From Runella sp. SP2 (GTDB lineage Bacteria; Bacteroidota; Bacteroidia; Cytophagales; Spirosomataceae), in contig NZ_CP031030.1 of NCBI RefSeq assembly GCF_003711225.1, forward strand, positions 4,960,001 through 5,024,000: 64,000 nucleotides of DNA. The letters are read 5' to 3'. Below, in pieces: positions 46,771 through 63,707 of the stretch. The notes under the pieces were generated by a model that had not been told where the DNA came from, made no database searches, and was given only the letters and a program-made list of their open reading frames with translations. Position 1 is the stretch's first letter. Every line of letters begins with the position of its first letter. The position numbers were made by a program, and so were the translations under genes.

Positions 46771-46795
46771 CGCTATTTTTCAACAAGTTACAACA

Positions 46796-46837: not shown

Positions 46838-46928
46838 TTTTTGGCAAAAAGTTTTGAAGATTTTTTTTGTTCCAGTGTAACCTTTGACCCCTCCTCTAGT
46901 AATCTCTTCATGAAAACCCAAACAGCGC

Positions 46929-47447: not shown

Positions 47448-47492
47448 ACAACAAAGGTTGGATTTGAGAATCCAACTCCACCAAGGAACAAC

Positions 47493-48395: not shown

Positions 48396-48450
48396 GCAAA
48401 CAATTAACACATTATCAACTCTTTTCATTAACACATTTATGTACAATCCC

Positions 48451-49470
48451 ATGAAAACAGCCTCTTTTTTCATAGCCCTTTTCGTCGTTGCAACCACTGT
48501 AGTAGCGCAAGAAGCCAAAGTATTCAAGACCAAGTTTAGCGGGCCAGGCAAAAGCCTCGTCATGAACATCGATGCCAAACAACTCGACATGGAAGGCTAC
48601 AACGGCGACGAGGTTATCATCGAAGCCAAAGATGTCCCTTCTGTACCCAAAGACGCCGAAGGACTCCGCCCTTTGTCGGCCACGGGCGTTGACAATACCA
48701 ACATTGGGCTATCAGTCAATGCCAATGGCAACACGCTTACCATTACAACCGTGATGAAAGGTAAAACGATGTACAAAATTCGGGTTCCAAAAGAATTGGG
48801 CATTACAGTCAAAAAACGCCATTCCTGCTCTTGCAACGAAAACGGTATGAGTATTGCTGGCATGGAAGGCCCACTCGAAATCAACACCAATTACGAAGCC
48901 ATTACGCTCACCGACGTATCGGGGCCGATTGTTGCCAATTCGCAGCAGGGAAAAATCAAGGTAATTTTTAACGATAAAATGCCTGACAAACCTTCGTCGA
49001 TTGTCACGTATGGCAATGATGTGGACGTAACCGTCCCTGATAAAGCCAAGGTTTTATTCAGTATTTCATCGGCCAACGGCAATATGTTTACTGACCTTGA
49101 TTTGAAATCTTATACGACGCCGACCAAAACCGAAGGTTCGGTAGAAGAAAAACGCGCGCTTGATGCTGTCATTGCCCAGCGAGATGCTGACCGTACCGTG
49201 ACCGTAAACGGATATGCCTCTTCTTCGGGCTGGGGGCAGTCTAGGACTTTTTCTGGCTCAGCGGCGAGTGCTTCCGCGCCTGCCCCAAGTAGCGTCTATG
49301 TATGGGATGGCAATGAATGGAATGCGAATAATATCATCTCGACCAATGGCTTGTCTTATGCGTGGCTTGACTCCGACAAATCATTCCCCAAATACGTACT
49401 AAACGAACCACAAACCAAAATCATGCTTCGCACTACGCAGGGTAATGTTTATTTGAGAAAGAAAAAGTAA
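48451..49470 (+). CDS. Exported beta-helix/DUF4097-like protein of the ECF locus
   Basis: 339 residues with a signal peptide (KTASFFIALFVVATTVVAQ). The body is a repetitive beta-strand series (VIIEAKDV, LTITTVMKGKTMYKIRVP, LEINTNYEAITLTDVSGPIVANSQQG, VDVTVPDKAKVLFSISSANG), as in DUF4097 'putative adhesin' proteins that commonly follow ECF sigma/anti-sigma pairs in Bacteroidota. Contains Cys-Ser-Cys in HSCSCNENG. ATG at 48451 (MKTASFF) begins the signal peptide; an ATG four codons upstream is also possible. Likely co-transcribed with the ECF pair. Confidence 0.8.
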   Translation: MKTASFFIALFVVATTVVAQEAKVFKTKFSGPGKSLVMNIDAKQLDMEGYNGDEVIIEAKDVPSVPKDAEGLRPLSATGVDNTNIGLSVNANGNTLTITTVMKGKTMYKIRVPKELGITVKKRHSCSCNENGMSIAGMEGPLEINTNYEAITLTDVSGPIVANSQQGKIKVIFNDKMPDKPSSIVTYGNDVDVTVPDKAKVLFSISSANGNMFTDLDLKSYTTPTKTEGSVEEKRALDAVIAQRDADRTVTVNGYASSSGWGQSRTFSGSAASASAPAPSSVYVWDGNEWNANNIISTNGLSYAWLDSDKSFPKYVLNEPQTKIMLRTTQGNVYLRKKK

Positions 49471-49478
49471 CCCCCACA

Positions 49479-49509
49479 ATTGAGGCTGGCCCAAAAAGCC
49501 AGCCTCAAT
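49479..49509 (+). terminator. Terminator after the DUF4097-like gene
   Basis: A perfect 12-bp stem (attgaggctggc / gccagcctcaat), 7-nt loop; no long T-run. Separates the ECF operon from the TlpA-DUF3738 gene. Confidence 0.7.
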
Positions 49510-49552
49510 ACTAAAACAGCCATCCCACCTTATTAACATAACATCAAACCGC

Positions 49553-50752
49553 GTGAAGCATTTAGTCATCTTTGTATTGTTGGCCGTTTCTTTTCAGGCA
49601 TTTACCCAAACGGAATCCTTACTGGGCAAAAAATCCCCCGAACTGAAGTTTGAAACCATTGTCAATTTTGAGAAAACCAACGCCACGCTCAGCGACTTCA
49701 AAGGCAAGATTGTCATCCTTGATTTTTGGGCTACTTGGTGCGGGCCTTGTATTCAATCGTTTCCAGAATTAGAAAAACTTCAAGCCAAATTCCGCAACGA
49801 CCTTCAGGTCATTACCATCACAGACGACCCCGAAATGCGGATAAAACGTTTTTTGGAAAAGCGAAAAACAACCCTTCCCGTTGTGATTGATGAAAAAAGA
49901 GCGCTGGCGAAAATTTTCCCTCACCGCACCATTCCCCACACGGTCTTGATTGATAAAATGGGAACCGTACAGGCCATCACGACTTCGTCCGAGTTATCCG
50001 AAGCATTAATTAAGAACCTTCTTGCGGGGAAGGCTGTGAGTGTAAAGGAGAAAAAAGATGTCATTGATTTTGACCCTTCTTTGCCACTTTCTGGCAATGG
50101 CGACTTTACTTTTCAGCTTACCATTACCCCTTTTAAGGAAGGTTATCCCTCTTTTTGTAACCCAAAAGGAGGTGGTAGCATCTACGAAGGGCGGCGAATC
50201 GTTGCGACCAACCTTTCTCCCAAAACGTTATTTGAAGTTGCGCATCAATTTCCGCCAGGCATCCGAACAGTACTGGACGTATCTGACCCTTCAAAATTTT
50301 CTTGGAACGAGCAAAATTGTGTCTGTTTTGACTTAATCGTTCCCGAACACCTTGGCGAAAAACGGTTCGACATCATGAAGCAGCAATTAGAAATCTATTT
50401 TGGCTATCAATCATTGATTGAAGAGCGAGTACGCCCCGTAAAAGTTCTTCAAAGAATCAAGGACACCGCCGCCAAACTCACGGAGTCAAAACCAGAAACC
50501 ACCCCTGCCTCAAGCTACAGTGGAAAAGGATTATCCATGAAAGCGTCGGGCGTGGCAACCCTTGCAGATTTTTTGGAAAATCAAATTAACAAAACCGTCA
50601 TCGACGAAACAGGTCTAACAGGCTTGTACGATTTGGACATTCCTTGGTACAACGAAACGCCCAAACAAATTCACGAAGAATTAAGGAAAATAGGATTGCA
50701 GCTAGTTGAGGCCGAGCGAAAAATAAAAGTACTGGTTATCAAAGACAAATAG
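49553..50752 (+). CDS. TlpA-like thioredoxin fused to DUF3738 domain
   Basis: 399 residues with a signal peptide (KHLVIFVLLAVSFQAFTQ). A TlpA/ResA-type thioredoxin fold follows, with W62-C63-G64-P65-C66 and cis-Pro region TIPHTVLID. The C-terminal half (about 165-399) is DUF3738, recognised by the end TVIDETGLTGLYDLDIPWY. Fused forms occur in Bacteroidota, often near BlaR1/MecR1-like or ECF regulators. It may reduce exported disulphides. The start is GTG; no ATG is in frame nearby. A terminator follows the stop. Confidence 0.85.
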   Translation: MKHLVIFVLLAVSFQAFTQTESLLGKKSPELKFETIVNFEKTNATLSDFKGKIVILDFWATWCGPCIQSFPELEKLQAKFRNDLQVITITDDPEMRIKRFLEKRKTTLPVVIDEKRALAKIFPHRTIPHTVLIDKMGTVQAITTSSELSEALIKNLLAGKAVSVKEKKDVIDFDPSLPLSGNGDFTFQLTITPFKEGYPSFCNPKGGGSIYEGRRIVATNLSPKTLFEVAHQFPPGIRTVLDVSDPSKFSWNEQNCVCFDLIVPEHLGEKRFDIMKQQLEIYFGYQSLIEERVRPVKVLQRIKDTAAKLTESKPETTPASSYSGKGLSMKASGVATLADFLENQINKTVIDETGLTGLYDLDIPWYNETPKQIHEELRKIGLQLVEAERKIKVLVIKDK

Positions 50753-50766
50753 CCTCACAAACGTCA

Positions 50767-50799
50767 ATGGGCTGGCCTTATCGACCAGCCCATTTTTTT
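50767..50799 (+). terminator. Terminator of the TlpA-DUF3738 gene
   Basis: A 9-bp stem (atgggctgg / ccagcccat) with a 9-nt loop followed by seven T residues, overlapping the stop codon of the convergent toxin gene. Confidence 0.85.
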
Positions 50800-51166
50800 A
50801 TAAATCAACAGTTGTCAGTGTCACTGGAAATCCTTCATTCTCAATGTCATGATATAGCTTAATAAGCACCTCTTGGATTTTCGGCACTTGAGGAAGTATA
50901 TCGTCGTAGCGATTTGAAAACAGATTCAGCTGAAGAATGAATAGCGGTATATTGTACGTATTCTGCTGATAACGAATACTTTTATCATTGGTCACAAGCA
51001 CATGGAAGCCGTTATCTAACATTAGCCTTAGTAACTCTCCATTCTTTTTCCCCAGCCAATTTTGATCACGAATAGTAGTTACAGCTAAGGTTGTTGACTC
51101 AAAGCGATATTTGAGTTTAGTAGGCAGGTTTTCATCAAGCAGCACTCGCAAAGGCAGACGTATCAT
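50798..51166 (-). CDS. DUF5615 PIN-like protein (putative toxin)
   Basis: 122 residues. The PIN-like core is visible: LLDENLPTKLKYRF at the start (Asp and Glu of the active site) and VLVTNDKSIRY in the middle (Asp). DUF5615 proteins are the toxin partner of DUF433 antitoxins in VapBC-like systems and are predicted to cleave RNA. The ATG giving MIRLPLR overlaps the antitoxin's 3' end by 32 nt, which strongly couples translation. Small differences from true PIN domains mean nuclease activity is inferred, not shown. Confidence 0.85.
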   Translation of the reverse strand: MIRLPLRVLLDENLPTKLKYRFESTTLAVTTIRDQNWLGKKNGELLRLMLDNGFHVLVTNDKSIRYQQNTYNIPLFILQLNLFSNRYDDILPQVPKIQEVLIKLYHDIENEGFPVTLTTVDL

Positions 51167-51371
51167 GAGAAGTAAAATTACGTTTGGCAAAATCTAGCAC
51201 TGCCTGTATTTGTTCTTCTGAGATATAATCAAAGTCAGACAAAAAGGCGTGATACGAATCTCCATGATGCAAATAGTCAAACAAGTTTTTGACAGGGACT
51301 CGCGTTCCCCTAAATACAGGTGTTCCTCCCAAAATTTCGGGGTCTGACACAACAGCTTCTTCCAAAGTCAT
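51135..51371 (-). CDS. DUF433 antitoxin
   Basis: A 78-residue protein of the DUF433 family (VapB45-like): DPEILGGTPVFRGTRVPVKNLFDYL at the N-terminus (read as two overlapping pieces: ILGGTPVFRGTRVPV and KNLFDYL) with the HTH following, and ISEEQIQAVLDFAKRN near the end. It binds the DUF5615 toxin and probably its own promoter. Lies upstream of and overlapping the toxin gene. Confidence 0.88.
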   Translation of the reverse strand: MTLEEAVVSDPEILGGTPVFRGTRVPVKNLFDYLHHGDSYHAFLSDFDYISEEQIQAVLDFAKRNFTSHDTSAFASAA

Positions 51372-51412
51372 GATAATGGACGTTTTTCCTAACCAAAAAT
51401 ACTTTTTTTTCG

Positions 51413-51883
51413 CTACAATCTAAAATCTCTTTTACCTCCTGTTTTGGCAATAAGGCGGGTTTCTTTGATGACAATATGCTGGCTCATGGCTTTACACATG
51501 TCGTAAATAGTCAGCGCAGCTACGCTTGCTCCAGTCAACGCTTCCATTTCAATGCCTGTTTTCCCCGTCACGCTGGCGGTACATTCAATCACGACCTCGC
51601 GGGCTTCGTTGACCGATATTTCTACTTGACAGTTTTCGAGCCCCAACGGGTGGCAAAGTGGAATTAGCTCCCCCGTGCGCTTGGCCGCCATCACTCCTGC
51701 AATAATCGCGGTCTGAAAAACGGGGCCTTTTTTTGTATTAATTTCGTCGTTTTGGAGCAAATCCATGATTTCATCGCCCAATACCACAATAGTCCGCGCT
51801 TTGGCGACGCGTTTCGTGACTGCTTTTTCCGACACATCAACCATGCTGGGATTTCCGTCGGCATTCAAATGAGTAAGAGACAT
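51413..51883 (-). CDS. moaC: Cyclic pyranopterin monophosphate synthase
   Basis: 156 residues, normal length for MoaC. The signature is complete: PSMVDVSEKAVTKRVAKA at the start, GVMAAKRTGELIPLCHPLGL (substrate-binding Lys, Arg, His) and KTGIEMEALTGASVAAL. It converts the GTP-derived intermediate to cPMP in molybdenum-cofactor synthesis. No other moa gene is near. The start is the ATG giving MSLTHLN; the longer frame is rejected. It faces away from the ebo cluster across a 229-bp spacer with no other gene. Confidence 0.95.
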   Translation of the reverse strand: MSLTHLNADGNPSMVDVSEKAVTKRVAKARTIVVLGDEIMDLLQNDEINTKKGPVFQTAIIAGVMAAKRTGELIPLCHPLGLENCQVEISVNEAREVVIECTASVTGKTGIEMEALTGASVAALTIYDMCKAMSQHIVIKETRLIAKTGGKRDFRL

Positions 51884-52070
51884 TCCCTTCTTGTTTTTAT
51901 ATGCAAAGTAACAGGGTTTGATTCTCTTTTTAACCACATAAACCACTTAGTTTTTTATGATTCCTATTGTGAAAACTTCTATGTTCCCTATGTGGTTATC
52001 TAAGAAAGTCTAAACACGTCGATTTCCTAATTTTTATCATTGTATTGTCTGCGCTCATTGACTACCATTG

Positions 52071-52078
52071 TACCTTTG
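52071..52078 (+). promoter_or_regulatory. Putative -7 box (TACCTTTG) of the ebo cluster
   Basis: Perfect match to TAnnTTTG, 34 nt before the chosen eboA ATG. The nearest TTG at 52045 is slightly too far (23-nt spacer). It argues against the TTG start at 52068, which would lie upstream of the transcript. Confidence 0.4.
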
Positions 52079-52112
52079 TCATGGGTCTTTGAACAAAGAA
52101 CGACTGAATGCT

Positions 52113-52991
52113 ATGTATGAACCAATAAAGAGCTTGTTGTGGGAGATTTTGACCACCCACCTTACTACAGCCGAGTCGGAATGGCTCGAAAAACAGGGCG
52201 TCGCTCACCCGCTCGAATTGATGACCGCTTTTGTGGCCGCCCCGCGGTTTTTGTCCAAACGATTCGTTCAACCCAGCCCCGAACAAGCCGCCGAGCTTGA
52301 TAACCTCATCGAAGGTTTTTCGGTAGAAGGCTGGAGTTTTGTGCGCCTAAGCCGCGTGTGGCTGTTGAGCTGCTTGGATGCCTCCAACAAAGAAGCGTAT
52401 TGCCGCCACATCGAAACCCTCTTTGATACGGCCGAAATGAACGAGTTGGTGGCGCTTTATTCGGCGTTGCCTCTTCTGGCCTATCCCGAACAATGGCTGT
52501 TTAGGGCGACCGATGCCGTTCGTTCCAACATGGGCGTGGTTTATGAAGCCATTGCCTTGGGCAACCCGTACCCTTATCATCATTTTTCCGAATTGGCCTG
52601 GAATCAATTGGTTTTGAAGGGAATTTTTAACGACAAACCGCTTCACCTGATTTATGGATTGGAAGAACGTAGCAACGAAAAACTCGTGCTGACGCTATCT
52701 GATTTCGCGCACGAACGCTGGGCCGCAGGACGGTGGGTAGCGCCTCAAGTATGGCGACTGACCTCCAAGTTTTTGAACGAAACGTTGTTGGAAGATATGA
52801 AACATTTGTTTCAGTCAGACGTTGAATACGACCAACAAGCCGCAGCCTTGGCTTGTTATCATTCCAATTACGAGCCTGCTTTACAATTACTGGCGAGTTA
52901 TCCACATTTAGAAAAAATTGTTAACAATCACCACATTACGTGGACAAATCTTGAATTTTCTGACCTGAATACCTATGTGTCAAAACCATAA
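52113..52991 (+). CDS. eboA: EboA domain-containing protein
   Basis: 292 residues, nearly all helical, no signal peptide. Identification rests mainly on position as the first gene of an otherwise unmistakable ebo series and on its EboA-like helical layout (WSFVRLSRVWLLSCLDAS, EMNELVALYSALPLLAYPEQWLFRATDAVRSNMG split over helices). EboA proteins have no known activity; ebo genes are needed in cyanobacteria for moving a scytonemin precursor to the periplasm. The ATG is chosen over an upstream TTG because a -7 box lies between the two. Its end overlaps eboB by 17 nt. Confidence 0.85.
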   Translation: MYEPIKSLLWEILTTHLTTAESEWLEKQGVAHPLELMTAFVAAPRFLSKRFVQPSPEQAAELDNLIEGFSVEGWSFVRLSRVWLLSCLDASNKEAYCRHIETLFDTAEMNELVALYSALPLLAYPEQWLFRATDAVRSNMGVVYEAIALGNPYPYHHFSELAWNQLVLKGIFNDKPLHLIYGLEERSNEKLVLTLSDFAHERWAAGRWVAPQVWRLTSKFLNETLLEDMKHLFQSDVEYDQQAAALACYHSNYEPALQLLASYPHLEKIVNNHHITWTNLEFSDLNTYVSKP

Positions 52992-53997
52992 AGAACTTGA
53001 ACAAAACCCCTCTCACTTTGAAGAGTCGGAGGAGGTAGTCGCCCACACTGACTTGAGTTGGGAATCGCACCGTGACCTGATTCGTGGAATGCGTTTTTTT
53101 GACCCGCACATCCACATGGTATCCCGTACTACCGACGACTACGAGGCCATGCGCGACGCGGGCATTGTGGCGCTGATTGAACCCGCGTTTTGGGTAGGGC
53201 AGCCGCGCACGGGGCTTTCCACCTTCAAAGACTATTTTAGCAGCTTGGTCGGTTGGGAGCGTTTTCGTTCGTCTCAGTTTGGCATCAAACATTATTGCAC
53301 GATTGGCCTCAATTCCCGCGAAGCCAACAACGAGCCTTTGGCCGAGCAGGTAATGGAAATATTGCCGTTGTACCTGTACAAAGAAGGCGTAGTAGGGGTG
53401 GGAGAAATTGGGTTTGACGACCAAACGGCTGCCGAAGAAAAATACTACCGTTTACAGTTGGAACTGGCAAAAAAAGCCAAGTTGCCCGTGCAAATTCACA
53501 CCCCCCACCGCGATAAAAAACGCGGCACCGAGCGCAGCATGGCCATCGCATTGGAGCACGGTATCGACCCGTCGTGGGTGATTGTGGACCATAACAACGA
53601 AGAGACGGTAAAAAGTGTGCTCGACCAAGGTTTTTGGGCAGCATTTACGATTTATCCTTTCACCAAAATGAGCAACGAACGAATGGTGAAAATTGTGGAG
53701 CAATACGGCCCCGAACGCATCATGGTCAACTCCGCTGCCGACTGGGGAATTTCTGACCCGTTGGCAATTCCAAAAACGGCGGTTTTGATGAAACTCAACG
53801 GCATTTCGGACGAGGCCATTCGGTTGGTTACGTACCAAAATGCCATCGATGCTTTTGCCAAAAGTGGTCAAATTGACGTCAGCGATTTTGAAAATGGCCT
53901 GACCATTGACCAAAGCCAAAAATTTAATGGAAATACCATTTTGCGCGGAGGCCAGGAACCTGGCGCAAAAAAAACAAACACGCTGATTATCAAGTAA
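52975..53997 (+). CDS. eboB: TatD family metal-dependent hydrolase EboB
   Basis: 340 residues. After a 38-residue N-terminal extension rich in Glu/His comes the family start MRFFDPHIHMVSRTTDDYEAM with the metal-binding HxH (His-Ile-His), then GVGEIGFDD (Glu), VQIHTPH (His), WVIVDHNNEE (His) and SAADWGISDP (Asp), the full TatD/amidohydrolase set. The 17-nt overlap with eboA favours the long start; the internal ATG at 53089 is the alternative. Substrate unknown. Confidence 0.92.
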   Translation: MCQNHKELEQNPSHFEESEEVVAHTDLSWESHRDLIRGMRFFDPHIHMVSRTTDDYEAMRDAGIVALIEPAFWVGQPRTGLSTFKDYFSSLVGWERFRSSQFGIKHYCTIGLNSREANNEPLAEQVMEILPLYLYKEGVVGVGEIGFDDQTAAEEKYYRLQLELAKKAKLPVQIHTPHRDKKRGTERSMAIALEHGIDPSWVIVDHNNEETVKSVLDQGFWAAFTIYPFTKMSNERMVKIVEQYGPERIMVNSAADWGISDPLAIPKTAVLMKLNGISDEAIRLVTYQNAIDAFAKSGQIDVSDFENGLTIDQSQKFNGNTILRGGQEPGAKKTNTLIIK

Positions 53998-53998
53998 C

Positions 53999-54874
53999 GT
54001 GAGTAGCCTCAAACCCTATTTTCAACTCGCTCGTCCTGCCAACATTGTCACGGCAATCGCCGATATTTTGGCGGGGATGACCATTGCCCAGTTCGTTTTT
54101 GAACCCACTCCCAACAACGCCTATTGGCTGATTCCAGCCACGATAGGCTTGTACGGCGGCGGCGTGGTGATGAACGACGTTTTTGACGCCAAACTCGACG
54201 CCATCGAGCGCCCCGAACGCCCCATCCCAAGCGGCAAAGTATCGGTGCAGGCCGCTGCCATTTTGGGGGTTGGTTTACTACTTTTGGGCGTGTTAGCCGC
54301 CGCACAGTTCAGCATTCTAAGCGCCGAAATTGCCATTACAGTAGCTATTTTAGCCGTCATTTACGACCGTTTTGCCAAACATAGTGCTTTTTGGGGGCCG
54401 TTGACCATGGGGCTTTGTCGGGGAGGAAATTTGCTTCTTGGCATGAGTGCCGTTGAGCCTTCTTTGTCGGAATGGGGCTGGGTGGCGTTGGTGCCTATTG
54501 CTTACATTGGCGCTATTACGCTTATTAGTCAAGACGAAGTTCACGGAGGAAAACGGCGCTCGTTGTACATCGCTGCTTCCTTATATACTACCGTCCATGC
54601 AGTGCAATTTCTGGTAGCACACCAACAAGGAAATGCGCCATTGGCATTCCTTCTCATTGCTCTTCATGCGTGGTTGGTAGGGCGTCCTTTGTGGACAGCC
54701 ATACAAAATCCTATTGGCCCCAACATCGGCAAAGCGGTAAAATCTGGCGTTTTATCGCTTATTGTGATGGATGCGTCTTGGTGCGTAGTATTTGGGAACT
54801 GGCCTCTAGCCCTTGGTGTTCTGCTACTACTTCCGTTATCCATACGATTGGCCCGTATTTTTGCGGTGACTTAG
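53999..54874 (+). CDS. eboC: UbiA-like prenyltransferase EboC
   Basis: 291 residues with about eight membrane helices. The Asp-rich prenyl-diphosphate motif of UbiA enzymes appears as NDVFDAKLDAIERPERPIP (about 59-77) and the second one as DRFAKHS plus QDEVHGGKRR further on. It would attach an isoprenoid chain to an acceptor at the membrane. The start is GTG one nucleotide after the eboB stop. Acceptor and donor are unknown. Confidence 0.93.
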   Translation: MSSLKPYFQLARPANIVTAIADILAGMTIAQFVFEPTPNNAYWLIPATIGLYGGGVVMNDVFDAKLDAIERPERPIPSGKVSVQAAAILGVGLLLLGVLAAAQFSILSAEIAITVAILAVIYDRFAKHSAFWGPLTMGLCRGGNLLLGMSAVEPSLSEWGWVALVPIAYIGAITLISQDEVHGGKRRSLYIAASLYTTVHAVQFLVAHQQGNAPLAFLLIALHAWLVGRPLWTAIQNPIGPNIGKAVKSGVLSLIVMDASWCVVFGNWPLALGVLLLLPLSIRLARIFAVT

Positions 54875-54887
54875 CGAGTTTAAACTT

Positions 54888-56054
54888 ATGCAAATCTTAC
54901 AACAAACGTTTCAGGTACCTTATACCTATTCTATTTTTTTCACCAAACGACTATTCGACGTTGCCAATGATACGTTGCGTTCGTTCTTTGGTTCGTTTGG
55001 CCAAGCTGGCTTTCAACGTAAAGTATTGATAGCCATTGATGGAGGTTTTCTAGCTCATCATCCACAACTTCAAGAAGAGATTAACCTTTATTTTTCTTCC
55101 CTTGAAGACCTGGTGAAACTTGTGCCTCAGCTACTTGTTTTGCCTGGCGGAGAAGCGGCAAAAAACGACCCTAGCTTGTTCGACGAACTCGTAGAAGCCA
55201 TTGATAATTACGGCATTGACCGCCATTCGTTTGTCATTGGCATCGGCGGAGGAGCCATTTTAGACTTGGTCGGATACGCCGCAGCCGTATCGCACCGTGG
55301 TGTGAAGCACATTCGGATTCCGACGACGGTATTGTCCCAAAACGATTCGGGCGTAGGAGTGAAAAATGGCATCAACTACCGTGGAAAGAAAAACTTTTTG
55401 GGGACGTTTGCTCCGCCCGTAGCGGTGTTTAACGACTTGACGTTTCTCCAAACCCTCGACGACCGCGACTGGCGCGGGGGCATTGCAGAAGCCATCAAAG
55501 TTGCACTCATCAAAGACCAATCGTTTTTTGAGTGGATTGAAGTCAACGCCGAAGCCCTTGCCCAGCGCAATGAAGAGGTGATGGCTTACTTGATTCATCG
55601 CTGCGCCGAAATGCACGTTGAACACATCCGCAGCGGCGACCCCTTTGAATTTGGTTCTTCGCGACCGCTGGATTTTGGCCACTGGGCGGCTCACAAGCTC
55701 GAATACCTCACCGATTTTCAGGTGCGCCACGGCGAAGCAGTTGCCATTGGCATTGCCCTCGACTGTGTGTATTCGGTCAAAGTAGGAAAACTCACCAACA
55801 CCGAATTGCAGCGTATTTTAACGGTTATCCAAAAATTAGGTTTTGACCTTTACCACCCCAAACTCGCCGAAAACGACAAAATCAACCTTCGCAACGGCCT
55901 ACAAGAATTTAGAGAACACTTGGGCGGCCGCCTGACCATCATGCTCCTCGACCGCATCGGAAAGGGCGTTGAAGTCCACGAAATGGACGCCGACCTCATT
56001 GCTGAGTCAGTGGATTATTTGGAAGGGAATTATGCGAATTTGCTGGTCGGTTAA
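54888..56054 (+). CDS. eboD: 3-dehydroquinate synthase-like protein EboD
   Basis: 388 residues. The NAD-binding and catalytic core of the sugar-phosphate cyclase family is present: LPGGEAAKND, IGIGGGAILDLVGYAAA, RIPTTVLSQNDSGVGVKNGIN. Zinc ligands fit dehydroquinate synthase in spacing: Glu201 (IAEAIK), His265 (FGHWAAH) and His281 (RHGEAV). The KNGIN segment where AroB has other residues marks EboD-like cyclases, which probably use a different sugar phosphate. Placed 13 nt after eboC. Confidence 0.94.
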   Translation: MQILQQTFQVPYTYSIFFTKRLFDVANDTLRSFFGSFGQAGFQRKVLIAIDGGFLAHHPQLQEEINLYFSSLEDLVKLVPQLLVLPGGEAAKNDPSLFDELVEAIDNYGIDRHSFVIGIGGGAILDLVGYAAAVSHRGVKHIRIPTTVLSQNDSGVGVKNGINYRGKKNFLGTFAPPVAVFNDLTFLQTLDDRDWRGGIAEAIKVALIKDQSFFEWIEVNAEALAQRNEEVMAYLIHRCAEMHVEHIRSGDPFEFGSSRPLDFGHWAAHKLEYLTDFQVRHGEAVAIGIALDCVYSVKVGKLTNTELQRILTVIQKLGFDLYHPKLAENDKINLRNGLQEFREHLGGRLTIMLLDRIGKGVEVHEMDADLIAESVDYLEGNYANLLVG

Positions 56055-56069
56055 AAAACGTTTATTACC

Positions 56070-57266
56070 ATGAAAACTCCCTACGGACACCTCACTTATT
56101 GTAGCAACATTCACCCTGGCGAACGATGGGAGGATCATTTTAAAACCCTGCGCGACAACCTGCCGTACATCCAATCGCAGCTTTCGCCTAATGCTCCTTT
56201 TGCATTGGGGCTTCGTCTAGCCAACGACGCATCTATCGAGTTGGCGGAGCCTGAAAAATTGGCTGAATTTAAGGCATGGTTGAGCGCCAATAATATCTAC
56301 GTTTTTACCATGAACGGCTTCCCGTACGGCGGTTTTCATGCTACCCGCGTGAAAGACGATGTACACACGCCTGACTGGACCACCGACGACCGCACGGCTT
56401 ATACGCAGCGTTTGTTTGGGATTTTGGCCCAGTTACTACCCGAAGGAATGGAAGGCGGGATTTCTACTTCTCCCCTTTCGTACCGCTATTGGTGGGAAAC
56501 CGAAGAAGATAAACAACAAGCCATCAAAACGGCGACCGAAAATATTTTGCAGGTGGTCGAAACGCTAATGGAATTGCGGAAATCGACGGACAAACTCATG
56601 CACCTTGACATTGAGCCTGAACCCGACGGCATTTTGGAAAACGGGCAGGAGTTTATCGAGTGGTACAGTGAATATTTTTTACCAAAAGGCACTGCTTTTC
56701 TAGTCGAAAAACACGGTCTTTCTCCCGAAATCGCCCAAGAAACCTTGCTGACCCACGTACAACTTTGCTACGATGTTTGTCACTTTGCGGTCAGTTATGA
56801 AGAGCCACAAGTCATTGTTGACCAGCTCAAAGAGGTAGGAATCCGAGTTGGAAAAATTCAGATTAGTTCAGCCGTAAAGATGACATTGAACGACCAACGC
56901 GCTGAAAAATTAGACGCCATTAGAAGCTTCGACGAACCCGTGTATTTGCACCAAGTCGTCGCAAAAACCGAAGAAGGCACGTTCCAAAAATTCCCCGATT
57001 TGGCAGAAGCCCTCCAAGCCGACGCTAGTACCCACAACGAATGGCGGATTCACTTCCACGTGCCGCTGTTTATTGATTCGTACGGCTTACTTGACTCGAC
57101 ACAGGCTGAAATTGTGAAGACGCTCAATGTACATAAGGCTACGCCGTTTACCCAACACCTTGAAGTCGAAACTTATACCTGGGGCGTGTTGCCTACCGAT
57201 ATGCAAAAACCCATCGGCGAGTCTATTGTCCGCGAAATGCAATGGGTACAAGAACAACTCAAATGA
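56070..57266 (+). CDS. eboE: TIM-barrel metabolite-traffic protein EboE
   Basis: 398 residues, no signal peptide. A xylose-isomerase-like TIM barrel is suggested by HLTYCSNIHPGERWEDHFKT at the start, NIYVFTMNGFPYGGFH, LMHLDIEPEPDG and VQLCYDVCHFAVSYEEP, where Glu, Asp and His sit on strand ends. EboE proteins have no known reaction. Its stop overlaps the eboF start (ATGA). Confidence 0.93.
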   Translation: MKTPYGHLTYCSNIHPGERWEDHFKTLRDNLPYIQSQLSPNAPFALGLRLANDASIELAEPEKLAEFKAWLSANNIYVFTMNGFPYGGFHATRVKDDVHTPDWTTDDRTAYTQRLFGILAQLLPEGMEGGISTSPLSYRYWWETEEDKQQAIKTATENILQVVETLMELRKSTDKLMHLDIEPEPDGILENGQEFIEWYSEYFLPKGTAFLVEKHGLSPEIAQETLLTHVQLCYDVCHFAVSYEEPQVIVDQLKEVGIRVGKIQISSAVKMTLNDQRAEKLDAIRSFDEPVYLHQVVAKTEEGTFQKFPDLAEALQADASTHNEWRIHFHVPLFIDSYGLLDSTQAEIVKTLNVHKATPFTQHLEVETYTWGVLPTDMQKPIGESIVREMQWVQEQLK

Positions 57267-58636
57267 ACAAAACCGTTGTCATAGATATTGTTGGCCTGAG
57301 TGCCAATTTGATTGGAGAACATACTCCTTTTTTGAGCGAGTACGTTAAATCACGCCACACAACGCCGATTAAGCCCGTGCTGCCTGCCGTAACGACCACT
57401 TCGCAGAGTTGTTATGTAACGGGTAAATGGCCCTCGGAACACGGGATTGTGGCCAACGGCTGGTACGACCGCGAAGACGCCGAAATGAAGTTTTGGAAGC
57501 AATCCAACAAGTTGGTGAAAGCCGAAAAAATCTGGGATGCCGCCAAACGTCAAGACCCGTCGTTCACCTGTTCCAAGATGTTTTGGTGGTACAACATGTA
57601 CTCTACCGCCGACTTTTCGGTCACACCCCGCCCCCAATACCACGCCGACGGGGTGAAAGCACCCGATTGCTACGCCTACCCTGCATCGTTGCGCGACGAA
57701 CTTCAGCAAGATTTGGGACAATTTCCGCTGTTTAATTTTTGGGGACCCAATGCCAATATCAAATCGACAAAATGGATTGCCGATGCATCGCTGTGGGTTG
57801 ACCGCAAACATGACCCTACGCTGACGCTCATTTATTTGCCGCATTTGGATTATTGTTTACAAAAATTCGGCCCTGATTTTTCAAAGATTAGCAAAGAACT
57901 CAATGAAATCGACCAAGTCGTGGCCGATTTGGTGCGGCATTACGAAGCCAAAAACACCCGCATTGTTTTACTTTCCGAATACGGCATTAACCCCGTTCAT
58001 CGTCCCGTTCACATCAATCGTATTTTGCGCGAAGAAGGTCTGATTTCAGTACGTAACGAGCGTTGGTATGAGCTTTTGGACGCGGGTGCTTCTAAAGCAT
58101 TTGCTGCTGCCGACCACCAAATTGCCCACATTTATATCAATGACCCTGCCGTAAAAGCGCAGGTAAAAAAACGCCTCGAACAAACCGAAGGAATCGAACT
58201 CGTACTGGACGAAGATGGCAAAAAAGCGCATCACATCGACCACGAGCGGGCGGGCGACTTGGTCGCGGTAGCCAAGCCCGACAGTTGGTTTACGTACTAT
58301 TATTGGCTCGACGACGCCAAAGCGCCCGATTACGCGCATTTGGTTGACATCCACCGCAAACCAGGCTACGACCCCGTTGAGATGTTTATGGATCCCAAAA
58401 ATCCGTTTATCAAACTTCGAGCGGGCTATAAATTAGCGCGTAAGCTGCTCGGTTTCCGTTATTTGATGGACGTTATTCCGCTGGATGCTACGCTCATCAA
58501 AGGTTCACACGGAGGCATCAGCGCTTCACCCGAATTTTATCCCATTTGTATTACAGACACTCCCCTCACGCAGGCCGAACTCCAAGCTACGGATGTCTAT
58601 GAAGTGATTTGGGGGCATTTGTTTGAGAAAGCATAG
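57263..58636 (+). CDS. eboF: Nucleotide pyrophosphatase/phosphodiesterase-like protein EboF
   Basis: 457 residues of the alkaline-phosphatase-like NPP type. Asp8 (VVIDIVGLS) starts the metal site, Thr44 in LPAVTTTSQSCYVTG is the predicted nucleophile, and further ligands are in YLPHLDYCLQK (Asp, His), LLSEYGINPVH and KGSHGG (His). It would cleave a phosphodiester or diphosphate in the pathway product. The ATG overlapping the eboE stop by four bases (ATGA) is chosen; an upstream frame inside eboE is rejected. Last gene of the cluster; no clear terminator, but the next gene is convergent. Confidence 0.94.
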   Translation: MNKTVVIDIVGLSANLIGEHTPFLSEYVKSRHTTPIKPVLPAVTTTSQSCYVTGKWPSEHGIVANGWYDREDAEMKFWKQSNKLVKAEKIWDAAKRQDPSFTCSKMFWWYNMYSTADFSVTPRPQYHADGVKAPDCYAYPASLRDELQQDLGQFPLFNFWGPNANIKSTKWIADASLWVDRKHDPTLTLIYLPHLDYCLQKFGPDFSKISKELNEIDQVVADLVRHYEAKNTRIVLLSEYGINPVHRPVHINRILREEGLISVRNERWYELLDAGASKAFAAADHQIAHIYINDPAVKAQVKKRLEQTEGIELVLDEDGKKAHHIDHERAGDLVAVAKPDSWFTYYYWLDDAKAPDYAHLVDIHRKPGYDPVEMFMDPKNPFIKLRAGYKLARKLLGFRYLMDVIPLDATLIKGSHGGISASPEFYPICITDTPLTQAELQATDVYEVIWGHLFEKA

Positions 58637-58666
58637 GTTGGGTTTTTATCCGAGGAAAATAGGCTA

Positions 58667-59089
58667 TCATTTCTTTTTTCTCGGATAAACAACCTCATTG
58701 GGAAAACTAGCCTGAACAGGTATCATGTAAACAGTCAGCGTCCATTTACCTCTACTATTCCCCCTAAAAACTCGATCAATTTTGGCGTGATGGTATCCCA
58801 AACTTTTGATTGTTACTGCCCTTAATTTCTCAGCCAAGCTAATTTTTACCATTCCCAACGAATCCGTCACATACCTTCCCGTGGCCTCTCCAGCTTTATG
58901 TTTGTTTAACCAAATAAACGCACTCGGCATTGGCCTATTATCCTGAGCATCTTTTACATACACGACGAGACTATCCTTTTCCGTGGGAGTATATCTAGCC
59001 TCGTACCCTCTTTCTCCAAAGAGTTTTTCTTGGGCATTTGCGCTACTACACAAAAAGCAAAAAAGATAAATGAAGATGCGTTTTTTCAT
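58667..59089 (-). CDS. Small exported protein, carboxypeptidase-regulatory-like
   Basis: 140 residues with a signal peptide (RIFIYLFCFLCSSANAQ). A single beta-sandwich domain follows (VYVKDAQDNRPMPSAFIWLN, RYVTDSLGMVKISLAEKLR, VTIKSLGYHHAKID), like the CarboxypepD-regulatory fold with a C-terminal KKK. Function unknown. Convergent with eboF. Confidence 0.72.
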   Translation of the reverse strand: MKKRIFIYLFCFLCSSANAQEKLFGERGYEARYTPTEKDSLVVYVKDAQDNRPMPSAFIWLNKHKAGEATGRYVTDSLGMVKISLAEKLRAVTIKSLGYHHAKIDRVFRGNSRGKWTLTVYMIPVQASFPNEVVYPRKKK

Positions 59090-59168
59090 TGGTTAATTCT
59101 TAGCCGTAGAATCCAAAGAGACTTACAAAGCTATTTGATGAATATAACTACTATTTCCACAATTTCTT

Positions 59169-59687
59169 ATGAAGAATTTCCCTCTAACACTACTACTCTT
59201 GAGCCTACTAATCATCAATAGCTGCCAACCCAAAGATGATGCCTTACCCGCTCCTACGACTGAGGGGCTCAATACTTTTGGTTGTAAAATCAATGGAAAA
59301 GTATGGATTGCAGACGGCATTCGGAACGACCAAGGCCCCGCCGCCAAAGCCATTGAGGTAGAGTTTAAGCGGTTGAATGCTACTACTTTTTATTTGTTTA
59401 TCCATACCAATGCCAGCACCAAAGACCGCGTTCAGCTAACGCTGCCCAAAGGAGTCGTGGGTACTAATCTATTGGAAGATTTGTACGACAAACCTTTCGG
59501 GATTTATTACGACAACAATTTCAAGATTTTCAAGACAAAATCATCAAACCCAGGACAAGTCGTCATCTCCCGATTGGACACCGTGAACCGAATCGTCTCA
59601 GGCAGATTTGCGTTTGATGCCGAATTCGTTGTTTCCAAAGAAACAGTAAAAGTTACCGAAGGACGTTTTGATGTTAAGTATGAGTGA
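59169..59687 (+). CDS. Small lipoprotein (DUF6252-like)
   Basis: 172 residues with lipobox LIINSC (Cys 19 or so), then TFGCKINGKVWIADG, the pattern of a Bacteroidota-specific family of small lipoproteins (DUF6252-like; from memory). Beta-rich remainder. Function unknown. Followed by a spacer of 149 nt to argD. Confidence 0.72.
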   Translation: MKNFPLTLLLLSLLIINSCQPKDDALPAPTTEGLNTFGCKINGKVWIADGIRNDQGPAAKAIEVEFKRLNATTFYLFIHTNASTKDRVQLTLPKGVVGTNLLEDLYDKPFGIYYDNNFKIFKTKSSNPGQVVISRLDTVNRIVSGRFAFDAEFVVSKETVKVTEGRFDVKYE

Positions 59688-59740
59688 GGAGAATGAGCAA
59701 ATCCATTCACCTATTCCACCACATTCTCCGCCAGATTCGG

Positions 59741-59748
59741 TATCTTTG
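59741..59748 (+). promoter_or_regulatory. Putative -7 box (TATCTTTG) of argD
   Basis: Perfect TAnnTTTG match 88 nt before the ATG, followed by gcggag and a T-run, so it might also be part of a weak terminator of the preceding gene. Low certainty. Confidence 0.3.
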
Positions 59749-59836
59749 CGGAGTTTTTTTATTTTAAGTTAGTTTGATAACGTGTTTGTTGTACGACTAA
59801 CTAATAACAATTAACGGTGGCTTGCCACTTAGTATC

Positions 59837-60970
59837 ATGAACCTGTTTAACGTTTATCCGATTTACGACATCGAACCCGTCCAAGCGCAAGGCTCTTGGC
59901 TCTGGGACAGCAAAGGCGAGAAGTACCTCGACCTTTACGGCGGTCACGCCGTGATTTCGGTGGGTCATTGTCACCCCCATTACGTCGAAAAAATGACGGA
60001 ACAGTTGCGACGAATTAACTTCTACTCCAACTCTGTCAGGATACCGTTACAGGATGAATTGGCCCAAAAACTAGGCGACCTCGCGGGCTATCCCGATTAT
60101 ACCCTCTTTTTGTGCAACTCTGGTGCTGAAGCCAACGAAAACGCCATTAAGTTGGCCTCTTTTTACAACGGCGGTAGCAAAATAGTCGCCTTTACGAAGT
60201 CGTTTCACGGCCGTACGGCAGGAGCAGTTGCGATGACCGACAACCCGTCGATTGTTGCGCCTGTCAACTACAACAAACACGTCACGTTTTTGCCGTTCAA
60301 CGACGCCGAAGCCATTCGTCAGCATGACATGACCGACGTGTGTGCCATCATCGTTGAAGGCATCCAAGGCGTGGGTGGTATCCAAGTAGCATCAGAAGAG
60401 TTTTTGCGGGCCATCCGTCAGAAATGTGATGAAAGCAACGCTACCTTTATTTTGGACAGCGTACAGTGCGGTTATGGTCGTTCGGGCAAATTTTTCTCAA
60501 ACCAACACTACACCGACCTTCACGCCGACCTATACACCACGGCCAAAGGCATGGGCAACGGTTTCCCCATTGCAGGGGTTTTGATTTCGCCCAAGTTCCA
60601 AGCCAAATACGGCATGTTGGGAACTACCTTCGGCGGAAATCACTTGGCGTGTGCGGCGGGTATTGCTGTACTCGACATCATGAAGGAAGAAAACCTCATG
60701 GCCAACGCCGTAGAAATCGGGGATTATTTGATGAAAGGCATTGCCGAAATCGGTGGCTACAAAGAGCTTCGCGGACGTGGGTTGATGATTGGCATCGAAT
60801 ACGATTTCGCCATTGAAGACCTCCGCAACAAGCTGTTGTTCGACTATAAATTATTCACGGGCGTAGCAGGCAAAAACACCATTCGTTTGTTGCCGTCGCT
60901 CGCACTCAAAAAAGAAGAAGCTGATTTGTTTTTAGAAGCGTTGAGCAAAGAAGTTCGCGTTTTGGCCTAA
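59837..60970 (+). CDS. argD: Acetylornithine/N-acyl-ornithine aminotransferase
   Basis: A 377-residue class III PLP aminotransferase. Visible are the start LFNVYPIYDIEPVQAQGSWL, the PLP-phosphate loop NSGAEANENAIKLA, FHGRTAGAV, the Asp in ILDSVQCGYGRSG and the Schiff-base Lys237 in TTAKGMGNGFP. It transaminates N-acyl-glutamate semialdehyde in arginine synthesis, feeding the N-acyl-ornithine carbamoyltransferase encoded at 45823. The ATG giving MNLFNV is chosen over a TTG five codons earlier. Confidence 0.92.
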   Translation: MNLFNVYPIYDIEPVQAQGSWLWDSKGEKYLDLYGGHAVISVGHCHPHYVEKMTEQLRRINFYSNSVRIPLQDELAQKLGDLAGYPDYTLFLCNSGAEANENAIKLASFYNGGSKIVAFTKSFHGRTAGAVAMTDNPSIVAPVNYNKHVTFLPFNDAEAIRQHDMTDVCAIIVEGIQGVGGIQVASEEFLRAIRQKCDESNATFILDSVQCGYGRSGKFFSNQHYTDLHADLYTTAKGMGNGFPIAGVLISPKFQAKYGMLGTTFGGNHLACAAGIAVLDIMKEENLMANAVEIGDYLMKGIAEIGGYKELRGRGLMIGIEYDFAIEDLRNKLLFDYKLFTGVAGKNTIRLLPSLALKKEEADLFLEALSKEVRVLA

Positions 60971-61036
60971 TTAAAAGCTAGTCCCAAGATGTAATTCGGG
61001 ACGCTCATGGTATCACGTTTCTGACGTTATAATTGG

Positions 61037-61076
61037 AAAAACCCTGAAAAAGTAACCTATCTTTTTCAGGGTTTTT
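61037..61076 (+). terminator. Terminator of argD
   Basis: A perfect 16-bp stem (aaaaaccctgaaaaag / ctttttcagggttttt) with an 8-nt loop and a T-run. Confidence 0.92.
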
Positions 61077-61115
61077 ATTTATCTTTACCAAAGATACTTT
61101 TTAAATCAACTGACC

Positions 61116-61727
61116 ATGTTAACGAAAACCTCTCGTCGAAAAGCACTACTGCCTCCCCAAAAGGTGTCTATTGAAGAATATTTCAGGGCAGAAGACAAAT
61201 CCATTTATAAACATGAATACCATGACGGCATTATCAAAAAAATGGCAGGAGGACAATTAACTCATAATCGATTGGCTCAAAAAGCAGCCAATCTCATTGA
61301 TTCTTTTTTGGAAAGTAATGATGTAAATCTTGTGGTAAGTAACAGCGACACTAAAATCCGAATTGAGCAATACAACAAGTTTGTGTATCCCGATGCAGTA
61401 GTGATTTGTGAAAAGCCAGCGTTTTACCAAAACCGAAAAGATACAATTACCAACCCTCTTGTCGTCGTAGAAGTACTGTCCGACTCCACCAAAGAGTACG
61501 ACCGAACCCTCAAATACGAGTATTACCGTACCATTCCAAGTTTCAAAGAATACGTATTGGTACATCAAGACCGCAAACACGTATCGGTCTATACCAAACA
61601 ACCCGATGCCACTTGGATTGTCCGCGACTACGACGGCGACGATGCCACCGCTATTTTGTACGCCATTCAGCAATGTCCACTGTCTCTCAAACGTCTTTAC
61701 AGGGGACTAGAAATCATAAACCCATAA
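61116..61727 (+). CDS. Uma2 family (DUF820) endonuclease-like protein
   Basis: 203 residues. The PD-(D/E)xK-like core: EEYFRAEDKSIYKHEYHDG, YPDAVVICEKPAF (Asp) and NPLVVVEVLSDSTKEYDRTLK (Glu and Lys). Uma2 proteins are widespread nuclease-fold proteins of unknown role, frequently in many copies. Stands alone between two terminators. Confidence 0.88.
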   Translation: MLTKTSRRKALLPPQKVSIEEYFRAEDKSIYKHEYHDGIIKKMAGGQLTHNRLAQKAANLIDSFLESNDVNLVVSNSDTKIRIEQYNKFVYPDAVVICEKPAFYQNRKDTITNPLVVVEVLSDSTKEYDRTLKYEYYRTIPSFKEYVLVHQDRKHVSVYTKQPDATWIVRDYDGDDATAILYAIQQCPLSLKRLYRGLEIINP

Positions 61728-61728
61728 A

Positions 61729-61761
61729 AAAACCGCAAAGCACATACGGCCTTGCGGTTTT
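61729..61761. terminator. Shared terminator of Uma2 and argS genes
   Basis: Stem aaaaccgcaa / ttgcggtttt with a 13-nt loop. On the minus strand it is followed by seven T residues, so it is a strong terminator of argS and serves the convergent Uma2 gene too. Confidence 0.85.
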
Positions 61762-61781
61762 GAGAGACATTCGACATTCTC

Positions 61782-63560
61782 CTACATTCTATCGGGTACT
61801 TCAATGCCCAAAAGCTCCATTGCTTTACGAATCGAATCAGCAATGGCTTGGGTCAGTAGCAAGCGCACGTGTTGTGCCGCCGCGTTTGGCTCTTGTAAAA
61901 TCGAAACTTCAGCGTAAAACGTATTATATACCTTCGCCAATTCGTACGCATACTGCGAAATCAACGCGGGTGAGTAGTTACGACCCGCATCCGCTACGCG
62001 GTCAGGGAATTGCGTAAGGGCAAAAATCACTTCTTGTTCAGAAGCCGTTAGCGCTACCGTCGAGGCAGGTTTGTTCCAGTCAATGCCTAACTGCACCGCT
62101 TTGCGCAACACCGAACGCGTACGGGCGTGGGTGTATTGAATAAACGGCCCCGTATGTCCGTGCAACTCCACCGATTCGGCAGGGTTGAACAACATCCGTT
62201 TTTGCGGATCTACTTTCAACAAATAATACTTCAACGCCCCCAACCCAAGCATCGAGAACAGCTTTTGCTTTTCGGCCTCCGTAAAATCGTCGATTTTGCC
62301 TTTGGCGTTGCCTTCTTCGGCAGCGGCGGCGGTTACTTCTGCTACGAGTTCGTCGGCGTCCACCACCGTTCCTTCCCGCGACTTCATTTTTCCTGATGGC
62401 AAGTCCACCATTCCATAACTCAAGTGATAACAACCTTCGGCGTAAGTGCGACCGAGGCGTTTGAGAATGGCAAAAAGCACTTGGAAGTGATAATCCTGCT
62501 CATTTCCAACGACCCAAATCGACTTATTGGTAGAAAAATCGGTAAACTTCAAATCCGTTGTGCCTAAGTCTTGGGTAATGTACACCGAGGTACCATCGCC
62601 GCGCAGCACTAGCTTTTCGTCTAGCCCCTCTTCGGTCAAATCAATCCATACTGAATTATCGGGCTTTTTGAAAAACACACCTTTGGCCAAACCTTCTTCT
62701 ACGGCATCTTTCCCGAGCAAGTACGTATTTGACTCGTAGTAGGTTTTGTCAAAACTCACCCCAATTTTCTGATACGTATCGTTAAAGCCCGCATACACCC
62801 ACTCGTTCATGGTTTTCCAAAGCGTAACGGTGACCTCATCGCCCTGCTCCCATTTACGGAGCAATTCTTGGGCTTCGAGCATCCACGGCGCTTTTTTCTC
62901 GGCTTCTTCTTTGGTCATTCCCTCCGCTACAAGGGTTTGGATTTGCTGTTTGTATTCTTTGTCAAACAACACGTAATATTTTCCAATCAAGTGATCACCT
63001 TTCATTTCCGCCGACTCAGGCGTTTCGCCGTTACCCAGTTTGGCATAGGCCAGCATCGACTTACAAATGTGAATCCCACGGTCGTTGACAAGGCAAGTTT
63101 TGATAACGTCGTAGCCGTTGGCTTTCAAAATACGGGCGACCGAATCCCCCAAAAAGTTATTCCGTAAGTGCCCCAAGTGCAGCGGTTTGTTGGTATTAGG
63201 CGAAGAAAACTCCACCATCACCGACTGTCCATTGGGAGCGGCAAAGCCAAAGTTTTCGTCGAGAGCCAAGGCATTAAGGGCGCCCACCCAGGCTGATTCG
63301 TCAATACTAAGGTTCAAAAACCCTTGTACAACGTTGAAGTTGCTCACTACTCCCGACTTTTCCAACACGTATGCCCCGAGCGCATTCCCGATTTCGACGG
63401 GAGGCTTGCGGAGGCTTTTGGTGTACGGGAACGTTACGAATGTATAAAAACCTTCAAAATCTTTTTTGGTAGGTTGAAGTGCGATTGTTGACTCTTCAAC
63501 ATTATAAATCTCCTTTAATGCACTTTGGAGAGAAGTTTTGATAATGGCTTCGATTTGCAT
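61782..63560 (-). CDS. argS: Arginyl-tRNA synthetase
   Basis: 592 residues. The N-terminal Add-1 domain covers about 1-85, the HIGH motif is HLGH (128-131, in KPLHLGHLRNN), and the KMSKS-equivalent is KMKSREGTVV. The C-terminal anticodon domain ends in LLGIEVPDRM. It charges tRNA-Arg. The longer frame (48 more residues to 63704) is rejected: the added part is not family-like and runs through a -7 promoter box. Confidence 0.96.
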   Translation of the reverse strand: MQIEAIIKTSLQSALKEIYNVEESTIALQPTKKDFEGFYTFVTFPYTKSLRKPPVEIGNALGAYVLEKSGVVSNFNVVQGFLNLSIDESAWVGALNALALDENFGFAAPNGQSVMVEFSSPNTNKPLHLGHLRNNFLGDSVARILKANGYDVIKTCLVNDRGIHICKSMLAYAKLGNGETPESAEMKGDHLIGKYYVLFDKEYKQQIQTLVAEGMTKEEAEKKAPWMLEAQELLRKWEQGDEVTVTLWKTMNEWVYAGFNDTYQKIGVSFDKTYYESNTYLLGKDAVEEGLAKGVFFKKPDNSVWIDLTEEGLDEKLVLRGDGTSVYITQDLGTTDLKFTDFSTNKSIWVVGNEQDYHFQVLFAILKRLGRTYAEGCYHLSYGMVDLPSGKMKSREGTVVDADELVAEVTAAAAEEGNAKGKIDDFTEAEKQKLFSMLGLGALKYYLLKVDPQKRMLFNPAESVELHGHTGPFIQYTHARTRSVLRKAVQLGIDWNKPASTVALTASEQEVIFALTQFPDRVADAGRNYSPALISQYAYELAKVYNTFYAEVSILQEPNAAAQHVRLLLTQAIADSIRKAMELLGIEVPDRM

Positions 63561-63615
63561 AAGACGTGGTTCGTTGGTCTGCCTTCTAGTGTTAGTTGGC
63601 AACTTAAATAAGCCG

Positions 63616-63623
63616 CAAAAGTA
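63616..63623 (-). promoter_or_regulatory. Putative -7 box (TACTTTTG) of argS
   Basis: TAnnTTTG on the minus strand 56 nt before the argS ATG, with a TTTG 16 nt further upstream (63640-63643). Confidence 0.4.
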
Positions 63624-63692
63624 CGGCAAATTCGACAAGCAAATACTTGTATTCCCAAAAATTGGTTCTATTTTCGTATCATTCTCCACATT

Positions 63693-63700
63693 TAGCTTTG
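63693..63700 (+). promoter_or_regulatory. Putative -7 box (TAGCTTTG) of the terminal gene
   Basis: Perfect TAnnTTTG ending 7 nt before the ATG at 63708, giving a leaderless or nearly leaderless transcript. Confidence 0.4.
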
Positions 63701-63707
63701 CCATGAA

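Follow-up and report, generated by a model that had tools for sequence, protein, structure and literature searches.

What do bacteria make with the ebo genes, and where does the product act? The question is raised by a window of 64,000 nucleotides (nt) from Runella sp. SP2 (Bacteroidota; contig NZ_CP031030.1, positions 4,960,001 to 5,024,000, forward strand), in which six genes at window positions 52113-58636, eboA to eboF, form a complete ebo operon. Ever since Yurchenko et al. described this operon in 2016 (PMC5133447), its enzymes have lacked an assigned product. The exchange of its cyclase for another enzyme, the fusion of this cyclase to a membrane domain and the link of the operon to the membrane protein TMEM220 all point to a membrane-crossing prenyl-cyclitol lipid, and each of them makes the function of the cluster testable. 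We give even chances to a canonical ebo operon that would make a prenylated cyclitol lipid, which would cross the membrane and aid the export of another metabolite, with TMEM220 as a partner in Bacteroidota.

The ebo operon of the Runella window

The six open reading frames (ORFs) lie on the plus strand in the order A-B-C-D-E-F, with at most 15 nt between neighbours. They encode EboA (52113-52991, 292 residues), a predicted alpha-solenoid of HEAT/ARM-like type that scores 168.8 bits with NCBIfam EboA_domain (cut-off 50) and 210 bits, below the cut-off of 320, with the stricter subfamily model NF035937; EboB (52975-53997, 340 residues), a TatD-like metallo-hydrolase that passes PF01026 (53.2 bits, cut-off 27) and stays below threshold for the TatD DNase subfamily TIGR00010 (36 bits, cut-off 206); EboC (53999-54874, 291 residues), a UbiA-superfamily prenyltransferase (NF035940, 406.2 bits, cut-off 250; Pfam UbiA, 82 bits); EboD (54888-56054, 388 residues), a sugar-phosphate cyclase (PF01761/PF24621; DHQ_synthase 119 bits, DHQS_C 115 bits); EboE (56070-57266, 398 residues), named a TIM-barrel family protein by NCBIfam (NF035939, 512.4 bits, cut-off 250); and EboF (57263-58636, 457 residues), an NPP/alkaline-phosphatase-like protein (PF01663, 217.4 bits when scored on a longer ORF from 57242, cut-off 23). 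At E <= 0.001 Pfam gives no match for EboA or EboE; both belong to their Ebo families at NCBIfam, on which the sequence-only reading of this DNA had made its identification depend.

The junctions listed in that reading stand for eboB/eboC (1 nt), eboC/eboD (13 nt), eboD/eboE (15 nt) and eboE/eboF (-4 nt, given an eboF start at the inner ATG 57263), but its first value, 17 nt, is an overlap of eboA and eboB (52975-52991) and not a gap. The eboA start at 52113 is itself an inner ATG within a longer ORF that begins with TTG at 52068; the eboA ORFs of three other loci (L038-L040) encode 292 residues as well, the same length as from 52113.

Among the 80 named loci that rank best out of 509 EboE relatives, a set hence biased toward near relatives, 69 have the same six-gene order. 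As these relatives keep the order, a cluster by chance is excluded. The remaining 11 loci show DEF (5), ABCDE (3), BCDEF (2) or EF (1), some of them being ended by a contig or locus edge. EboE has its nearest named relatives in Runella (R. defluvii, 98% identity). Of the 192 genomes of the order, 77 have the EboE family, as do 24 of the 25 listed from the window's own family. In three genomes (G157:C6, G132:C296, G364:C1) the EboE match is split in two pieces, by frameshifts or assembly errors. With the EboA, EboC and EboE families present and six genes adjacent on one strand in canonical order, the cluster is of the ABCDEF type, of which Bacteroidetes are listed as carriers (PMC5133447). The family matches and the 69 relatives thus bear out the complete, canonical plus-strand cluster that had been read from the letters, and confirm that it is real and of an already described kind.

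Residues, exchange and fusion of the cyclase

Active sites were compared in alignments of the window protein with the length-filtered proteins of the 80 named loci and with plasmid-locus proteins (EboD, 84 sequences, 78 from loci and 5 from plasmids; EboF, 87, 77 and 9; EboB, 81, 72 and 8; EboC, 82, 73 and 8). EboD keeps E201, H265, H281, K159, K168, N169 and K204 invariant, as in 3-dehydroquinate (DHQ) synthase. It differs at three substrate residues, presumably those on the carboxylate/phosphate side of the DHQ synthase substrate: Lys is replaced by H243, Arg by Ser or Ala at 258 and Asn by D262, each in 84/84 sequences, whereas the AroB of the same genome retains Lys, Arg and Asn. This genome has a separate aroB (G000:C1:2062450), which scores 153 bits against 122 for eboD. 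The possibility that EboD is the AroB of the genome, which the sequence-only reading had kept in sight for the case of a genome with no other aroB, is therefore rejected. The NCBIfam label for this type of cyclase is '3-dehydroquinate synthase' (580 bits, cut-off 333). In comparison with ValA, a sedoheptulose-7-phosphate cyclase (EEVS type), and at sites assumed to be its fingerprint positions L267, D281 and H360, D262 and H344 of EboD agree, I247 stands opposite Leu, and H243 and H269 differ. A 14-site fingerprint of sedoheptulose-7-phosphate cyclases has been published (eLife, 2015).

In the partner enzymes, the metal-ligand-like residues H45, H47, E144, H175, H206 and D256 of EboB are kept in 81/81 sequences, and the NDxxDxxxD positions of EboC in 81-82 of 82. 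EboF keeps T44, at the position of the nucleophile, N65, D196 and H416 in 87/87 sequences, and D8 is Asp in 78/87. When it is aligned on ENPP4, at the positions assumed for the two-metal ligands of NPP enzymes, a ligand His is replaced by Gln200 and an Asp-His pair by Glu239-Tyr240 in 87/87. EboF thus matches the Pfam family of NPP-type phosphodiesterases, but if these positions are correct, it departs from the canonical two-metal ligand set and would not be a standard NPP enzyme. This weakens the phosphatase part of the enzyme set proposed earlier: the nucleophile-position Thr is retained, but Gln, Glu and Tyr stand at metal-ligand positions.

The position of EboD can be filled by another enzyme. 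Plasmid-borne ebo loci were compared in the 40 listed out of 48 EboE-matching records, among them many Streptomyces that seem almost identical; EboD was placed with the 60 listed out of 115 matching records, and inositol-3-phosphate synthase (MIPS) with the full set of 46. Within 8 kb of eboE, 15/40 loci have EboD and 25/40 have MIPS, each locus having exactly one of the two. MIPS is the enzyme in 24 Streptomyces loci and in one from Gemmatirosa, where it adjoins EboC. Five annotated Streptomyces loci have, in this order, MIPS, an SCO3242-family prenyltransferase, a sugar phosphate isomerase, EboA, TatD, EboE and NPP. A prenyl-cyclitol product would lead one to expect just such an exchange between cyclitol-making enzymes. 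In three of these five loci a 'ScyD/ScyE family' protein is encoded 5' of the MIPS gene (L178:3930-5129, L181:3188-4390, L184:2993-4192).

EboD can also be fused to a membrane domain. One Salipiger EboD (633 residues) begins with a VTT (DedA) domain, and its N-terminal 320 residues, used as a query with scoring limited to the 7998 candidates that had most words in common with it, matched 17 proteins, all 17 with both VTT and DHQ_synthase; the named sources are Salipiger, Alloyangia, Paracoccus, Sedimentitalea and Pseudomonas tohonis. Since H243 is present in 17/17 and D262, W266 and H344 in all 16 proteins that cover the region (P0128 being gapped there), the fused cyclases are EboD and not AroB. 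Members of the DedA family are candidates for the translocation of undecaprenyl phosphate (PMC9876793), and the fusion would support a membrane crossing of the Ebo product. The three VTT matches elsewhere in the Runella genome are neutral in this respect.

By comparison between lineages, the prenylated cyclitol-like lipid suggested in the sequence-only reading gains support, as the swap and the active site of EboD, unlike that of DHQ synthase, argue for a cyclitol and the fusion for membrane crossing. The idea itself is not new, as it was published before this analysis: sedoheptulose 7-phosphate was proposed as the EboD substrate and an isoprenoid-cyclitol as the product by Yurchenko et al. 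2016 (PMC5133447), and a lipid carrier by Klicki et al. 2018 (PMC6282210).

TMEM220 as a candidate partner

Among the 80 named loci, 18 have a small membrane gene directly upstream of eboA, on the same strand in 11 and divergent in 7, and the two that were tested encode TMEM220 (PF15071). This partner is not visible from the window because the Runella copy (G000:C1:2741507-2741794) is 2.3 Mb away in the genome of 7.6 Mb. In a genome-wide profile search of the 192 genomes of the order, EboE is found in 77, TMEM220 in 77 and both in 70. As a positive control, EboC above its cut-off shares 76 genomes with EboE; SMR transporters, the negative control, occur in 95 genomes and share 48. At genus level (190 of the 192 genomes, one tied genus being dropped) the counts are 32/3/4/52 for EboE/TMEM220. 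When genus states are permuted within families, which corrects partly for kinship, the observed overlap is reached in 0/20000 permutations for TMEM220 and in 12111/20000 for SMR. A mere kinship effect is therefore rejected, SMR, the sole control family, being without association within families.

The association extends to the phylum (325 genomes, overlapping the order set: EboE 27, TMEM220 44, both 21; outside the order 15/5/23/269) and to a family, f25, sampled at nearly one genome per genus (139 genomes: EboE 25, TMEM220 31, both 24). The two genes are no more than 6 kb apart in 9/70 genomes that have both in the order, 6/15 in the phylum outside the order and 22/24 in f25, linkage being scored from EboE and EboC places, so that contig breaks can hide it. 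Family f25 was picked after linked TMEM220 had been seen in three members (G317, G367, G416); without these three, both genes are found in 21/22 genomes and linked in 19/21. Seven arrangements were observed. TMEM220 can precede eboA, either co-oriented or divergent; follow eboF, either in the same direction or convergent; lie 5' of eboE; or stand beside a lone gene of a scattered cluster, near eboF with one small ORF between (L142) or 5' of an eboD-like gene (L150). Co-occurrence and linkage with ebo are thus found together in several lineages, as for a component of the system. This survey covers Bacteroidota genomes and plasmid loci, one of the plasmids being cyanobacterial.

The TMEM220 model has four helices (predicted local distance difference test, pLDDT, 91.6) and no clear relative in the PDB. 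The residues invariant in 81 sequences, N24, D25, D27, W31, Y35, E91, R94, E95 and G98, lie at or near helix ends and are placed on one face by helix order. As the opposite face holds more Lys and Arg in 60 of the 81 sequences and fewer in 21, the conserved site is probably periplasmic. The EboA model (pLDDT 93.8) is an all-helical repeat solenoid, with HEAT/ARM-type proteins as its top structural matches, at a level common for repeats; such a solenoid would fit a scaffold role.

Function of the cluster and known systems

In the scheme that we infer, a sugar phosphate, probably sedoheptulose 7-phosphate, would be cyclised to a cyclitol by EboD, to which EboC would join a prenyl chain at the membrane, while EboB, EboE and EboF would tailor the head group or a precursor and the EboA solenoid could organise the other Ebo proteins. 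The prenyl-cyclitol lipid would then be moved across the inner membrane and support the export or periplasmic handling of a second small molecule, and in Bacteroidota TMEM220 would act on it at the periplasmic face. A more specific version, held tentatively and at somewhat less than even chances, is that Bacteroidota ebo would be a membrane-carrier system of seven components, in which the EboA-F lipid would be flipped, then acted on periplasmically by TMEM220, giving an export route separate from undecaprenyl phosphate. TMEM220 would contribute its four helices and an acidic site that does not vary (N24, D25, D27, E91, R94, E95), and lineages would vary the parts, using EboD or MIPS and being able to fuse a DedA-type VTT flippase domain to EboD. 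If true, this would be the first functional context for the TMEM220 family, which is named after a human protein. No bacterial TMEM220 function was found in literature listings, and in literature searches, with supplements and most subscription papers out of reach, none of the TMEM220 link, the EboD/MIPS exclusivity, the VTT-EboD fusion and the EboF ligand loss was found.

Several observations weigh against these proposals. The products of the swapped enzymes are not identical, that of MIPS being a phosphorylated cyclitol and those of EboD relatives unphosphorylated. The named VTT fusions are confined to one Pseudomonas and to Rhodobacterales, and Salipiger has a second EboD copy that is not fused. 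To our knowledge, the enzymes of Maribacter, Zobellia and Algoriphagus are the only EboC-type enzymes to have been assayed. They farnesylate quinolines; the acceptor panel was aromatic, and the word 'cyclitol' is absent from the report (Moghaddam et al. 2022; PMC9235831). None of the literature found describes an isolated Ebo lipid. TMEM220 occurs in 7/115, 23/298 and 7/114 genomes without EboE in the order, phylum and f25 sets (one such match in each of the first two being below the Pfam cut-off), and EboE is without TMEM220 in 7/77, 6/27 and 1/25. Among the 70 genomes of the order that have both genes, linkage is not seen in 61, to which Runella belongs, and a scan with a narrow local profile found no TMEM220 in ten plasmid ebo loci, including one from Bacteroidota. 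Finally, one EboE-negative genus (L115-L118) has its own conserved TMEM220 neighbourhood without ebo, which speaks against a purely ebo role; it contains a putative glycosyltransferase-like gene and a putative ABC-type ATPase gene.

The alternative that survives best, although we regard it as fairly unlikely, is that ebo makes one of the ordinary lipids of the membrane, a cyclitol prenyl ether that would alter membrane properties, the effect on scytonemin export being indirect and TMEM220 a broader lipid-handling protein. The presence of TMEM220 without EboE would suit it, as would a weaker NCBIfam match of EboC to geranylgeranylglycerol-phosphate geranylgeranyltransferase (87 bits) and the neighbourhood of the Runella cluster, where no natural-product or cargo gene was recognised among the ORFs at 46000-64000 by reading translations. 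It accounts less well for the trapping of one same intermediate in Nostoc, where the scytonemin monomer stays cytoplasmic in each ebo mutant made, eboD not being among them (Klicki et al. 2018; PMC6282210), and for ebo loci that lie beside natural-product-type genes in Streptomyces and Mycetohabitans.

We also hold it unlikely that ebo yields a prenylated aromatic signal or antioxidant, of quinoline or shikimate type, for which EboD would supply the aromatic precursor and no lipid carrier would be involved. This would agree with the NCBIfam label of EboD and with the activity of Ubi-297, of EboC type, for which 8-hydroxyquinoline-2-carboxylic acid is a farnesyl acceptor; of the 14 aromatic acceptors assayed, 6 gave products, quinolines being the best (Moghaddam et al. 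2022; PMC9235831). It is opposed by the carboxylate-side residues of EboD, unlike those of DHQ synthase in 84/84, by the second aroB and by the plasmid loci, where the enzyme found in place of EboD in 25/40, MIPS, yields no aromatic precursor. That TMEM220 and ebo go together through a common life style, that of large-genome, surface-living Bacteroidota, with no functional tie, is very improbable: both are patchy and mostly unlinked in the order, but the within-family permutation, the SMR control, the linkage in 22/24 f25 genomes and the positions of TMEM220 near single ebo genes of scattered clusters speak against it.

Other neighbours of ebo were also recorded. An unknown protein (587-662 residues) and a PF12902 ferritin-like protein form a pair near ebo in Aureibacter, Mycetohabitans and Gloeothece, of three phyla (L173:2046-5106, L177:4054-7072, L192:10855-14136); the kinship of the three unknown proteins is only putative, and the pair may make a cargo. 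A tryptophan 7-halogenase is encoded near the Mycetohabitans locus (L177:1-612), and scytonemin and the EDB indoles are likewise tryptophan-derived. Eight Chitinophaga loci (L064, L066, L067, L071, L079, L094, L107, L109) have 2.2-3.4 kb with opposite-strand ORFs, one of them a putative response regulator, between eboC and eboD, and two recurrent neighbours, c2 (13/80 loci) and c3 (11/80), are found in Chitinophaga loci only. A short-chain dehydrogenase, c1, recurs in 14/80 loci of several genera, with two such genes directly 3' of eboF in Larkinella (L088, L101, L111). In Runella, a Uma2-family gene (PF05685, 102 bits; 61116-61727) lies downstream of ebo between putative argD- and argS-like ORFs, and a minus-strand ORF at 50798-51190 (130 residues) encodes a putative DUF5615 protein.

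Compared with known systems, the prenyl-cyclitol carrier recalls undecaprenyl phosphate and its DedA proteins through the DedA-family (VTT) domain fused to EboD in 17 proteins, a likeness that serves as a working analogy only, the carrier role of the Ebo lipid being putative. The EDB cluster of Pseudomonas fluorescens NZI7 includes a full ebo cluster, like Runella (PMC6282210), and yields nematode-repelling indoles (PMC9655573). With Nostoc punctiforme, Runella shares the EboA, B, C, E and F families; eboD lies apart in Nostoc, and scytonemin genes accompany ebo there, whereas none was recognised near the Runella cluster by reading translations of the ORFs at 46000-64000, no dedicated scan of window or genome having been made. 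The earlier proposal that the cluster serves another purpose here is plausible for this reason, although no cargo was found. The Streptomyces SCO3242/MIPS variant has EboA, TatD, EboE, NPP and a UbiA-type enzyme in one gene run as well, and differs by MIPS in place of EboD, another prenyltransferase subfamily and an additional xylose-isomerase-like protein. An ebo operon is also reported from a eustigmatophyte endosymbiont (PMC6092422). Finally, with the ABCDEF type of eustigmatophytes and bacteria, Runella shares the six families, their order and their compactness; the window is without difference from it, and the distant TMEM220 gene and the residue-level data are what is added here.

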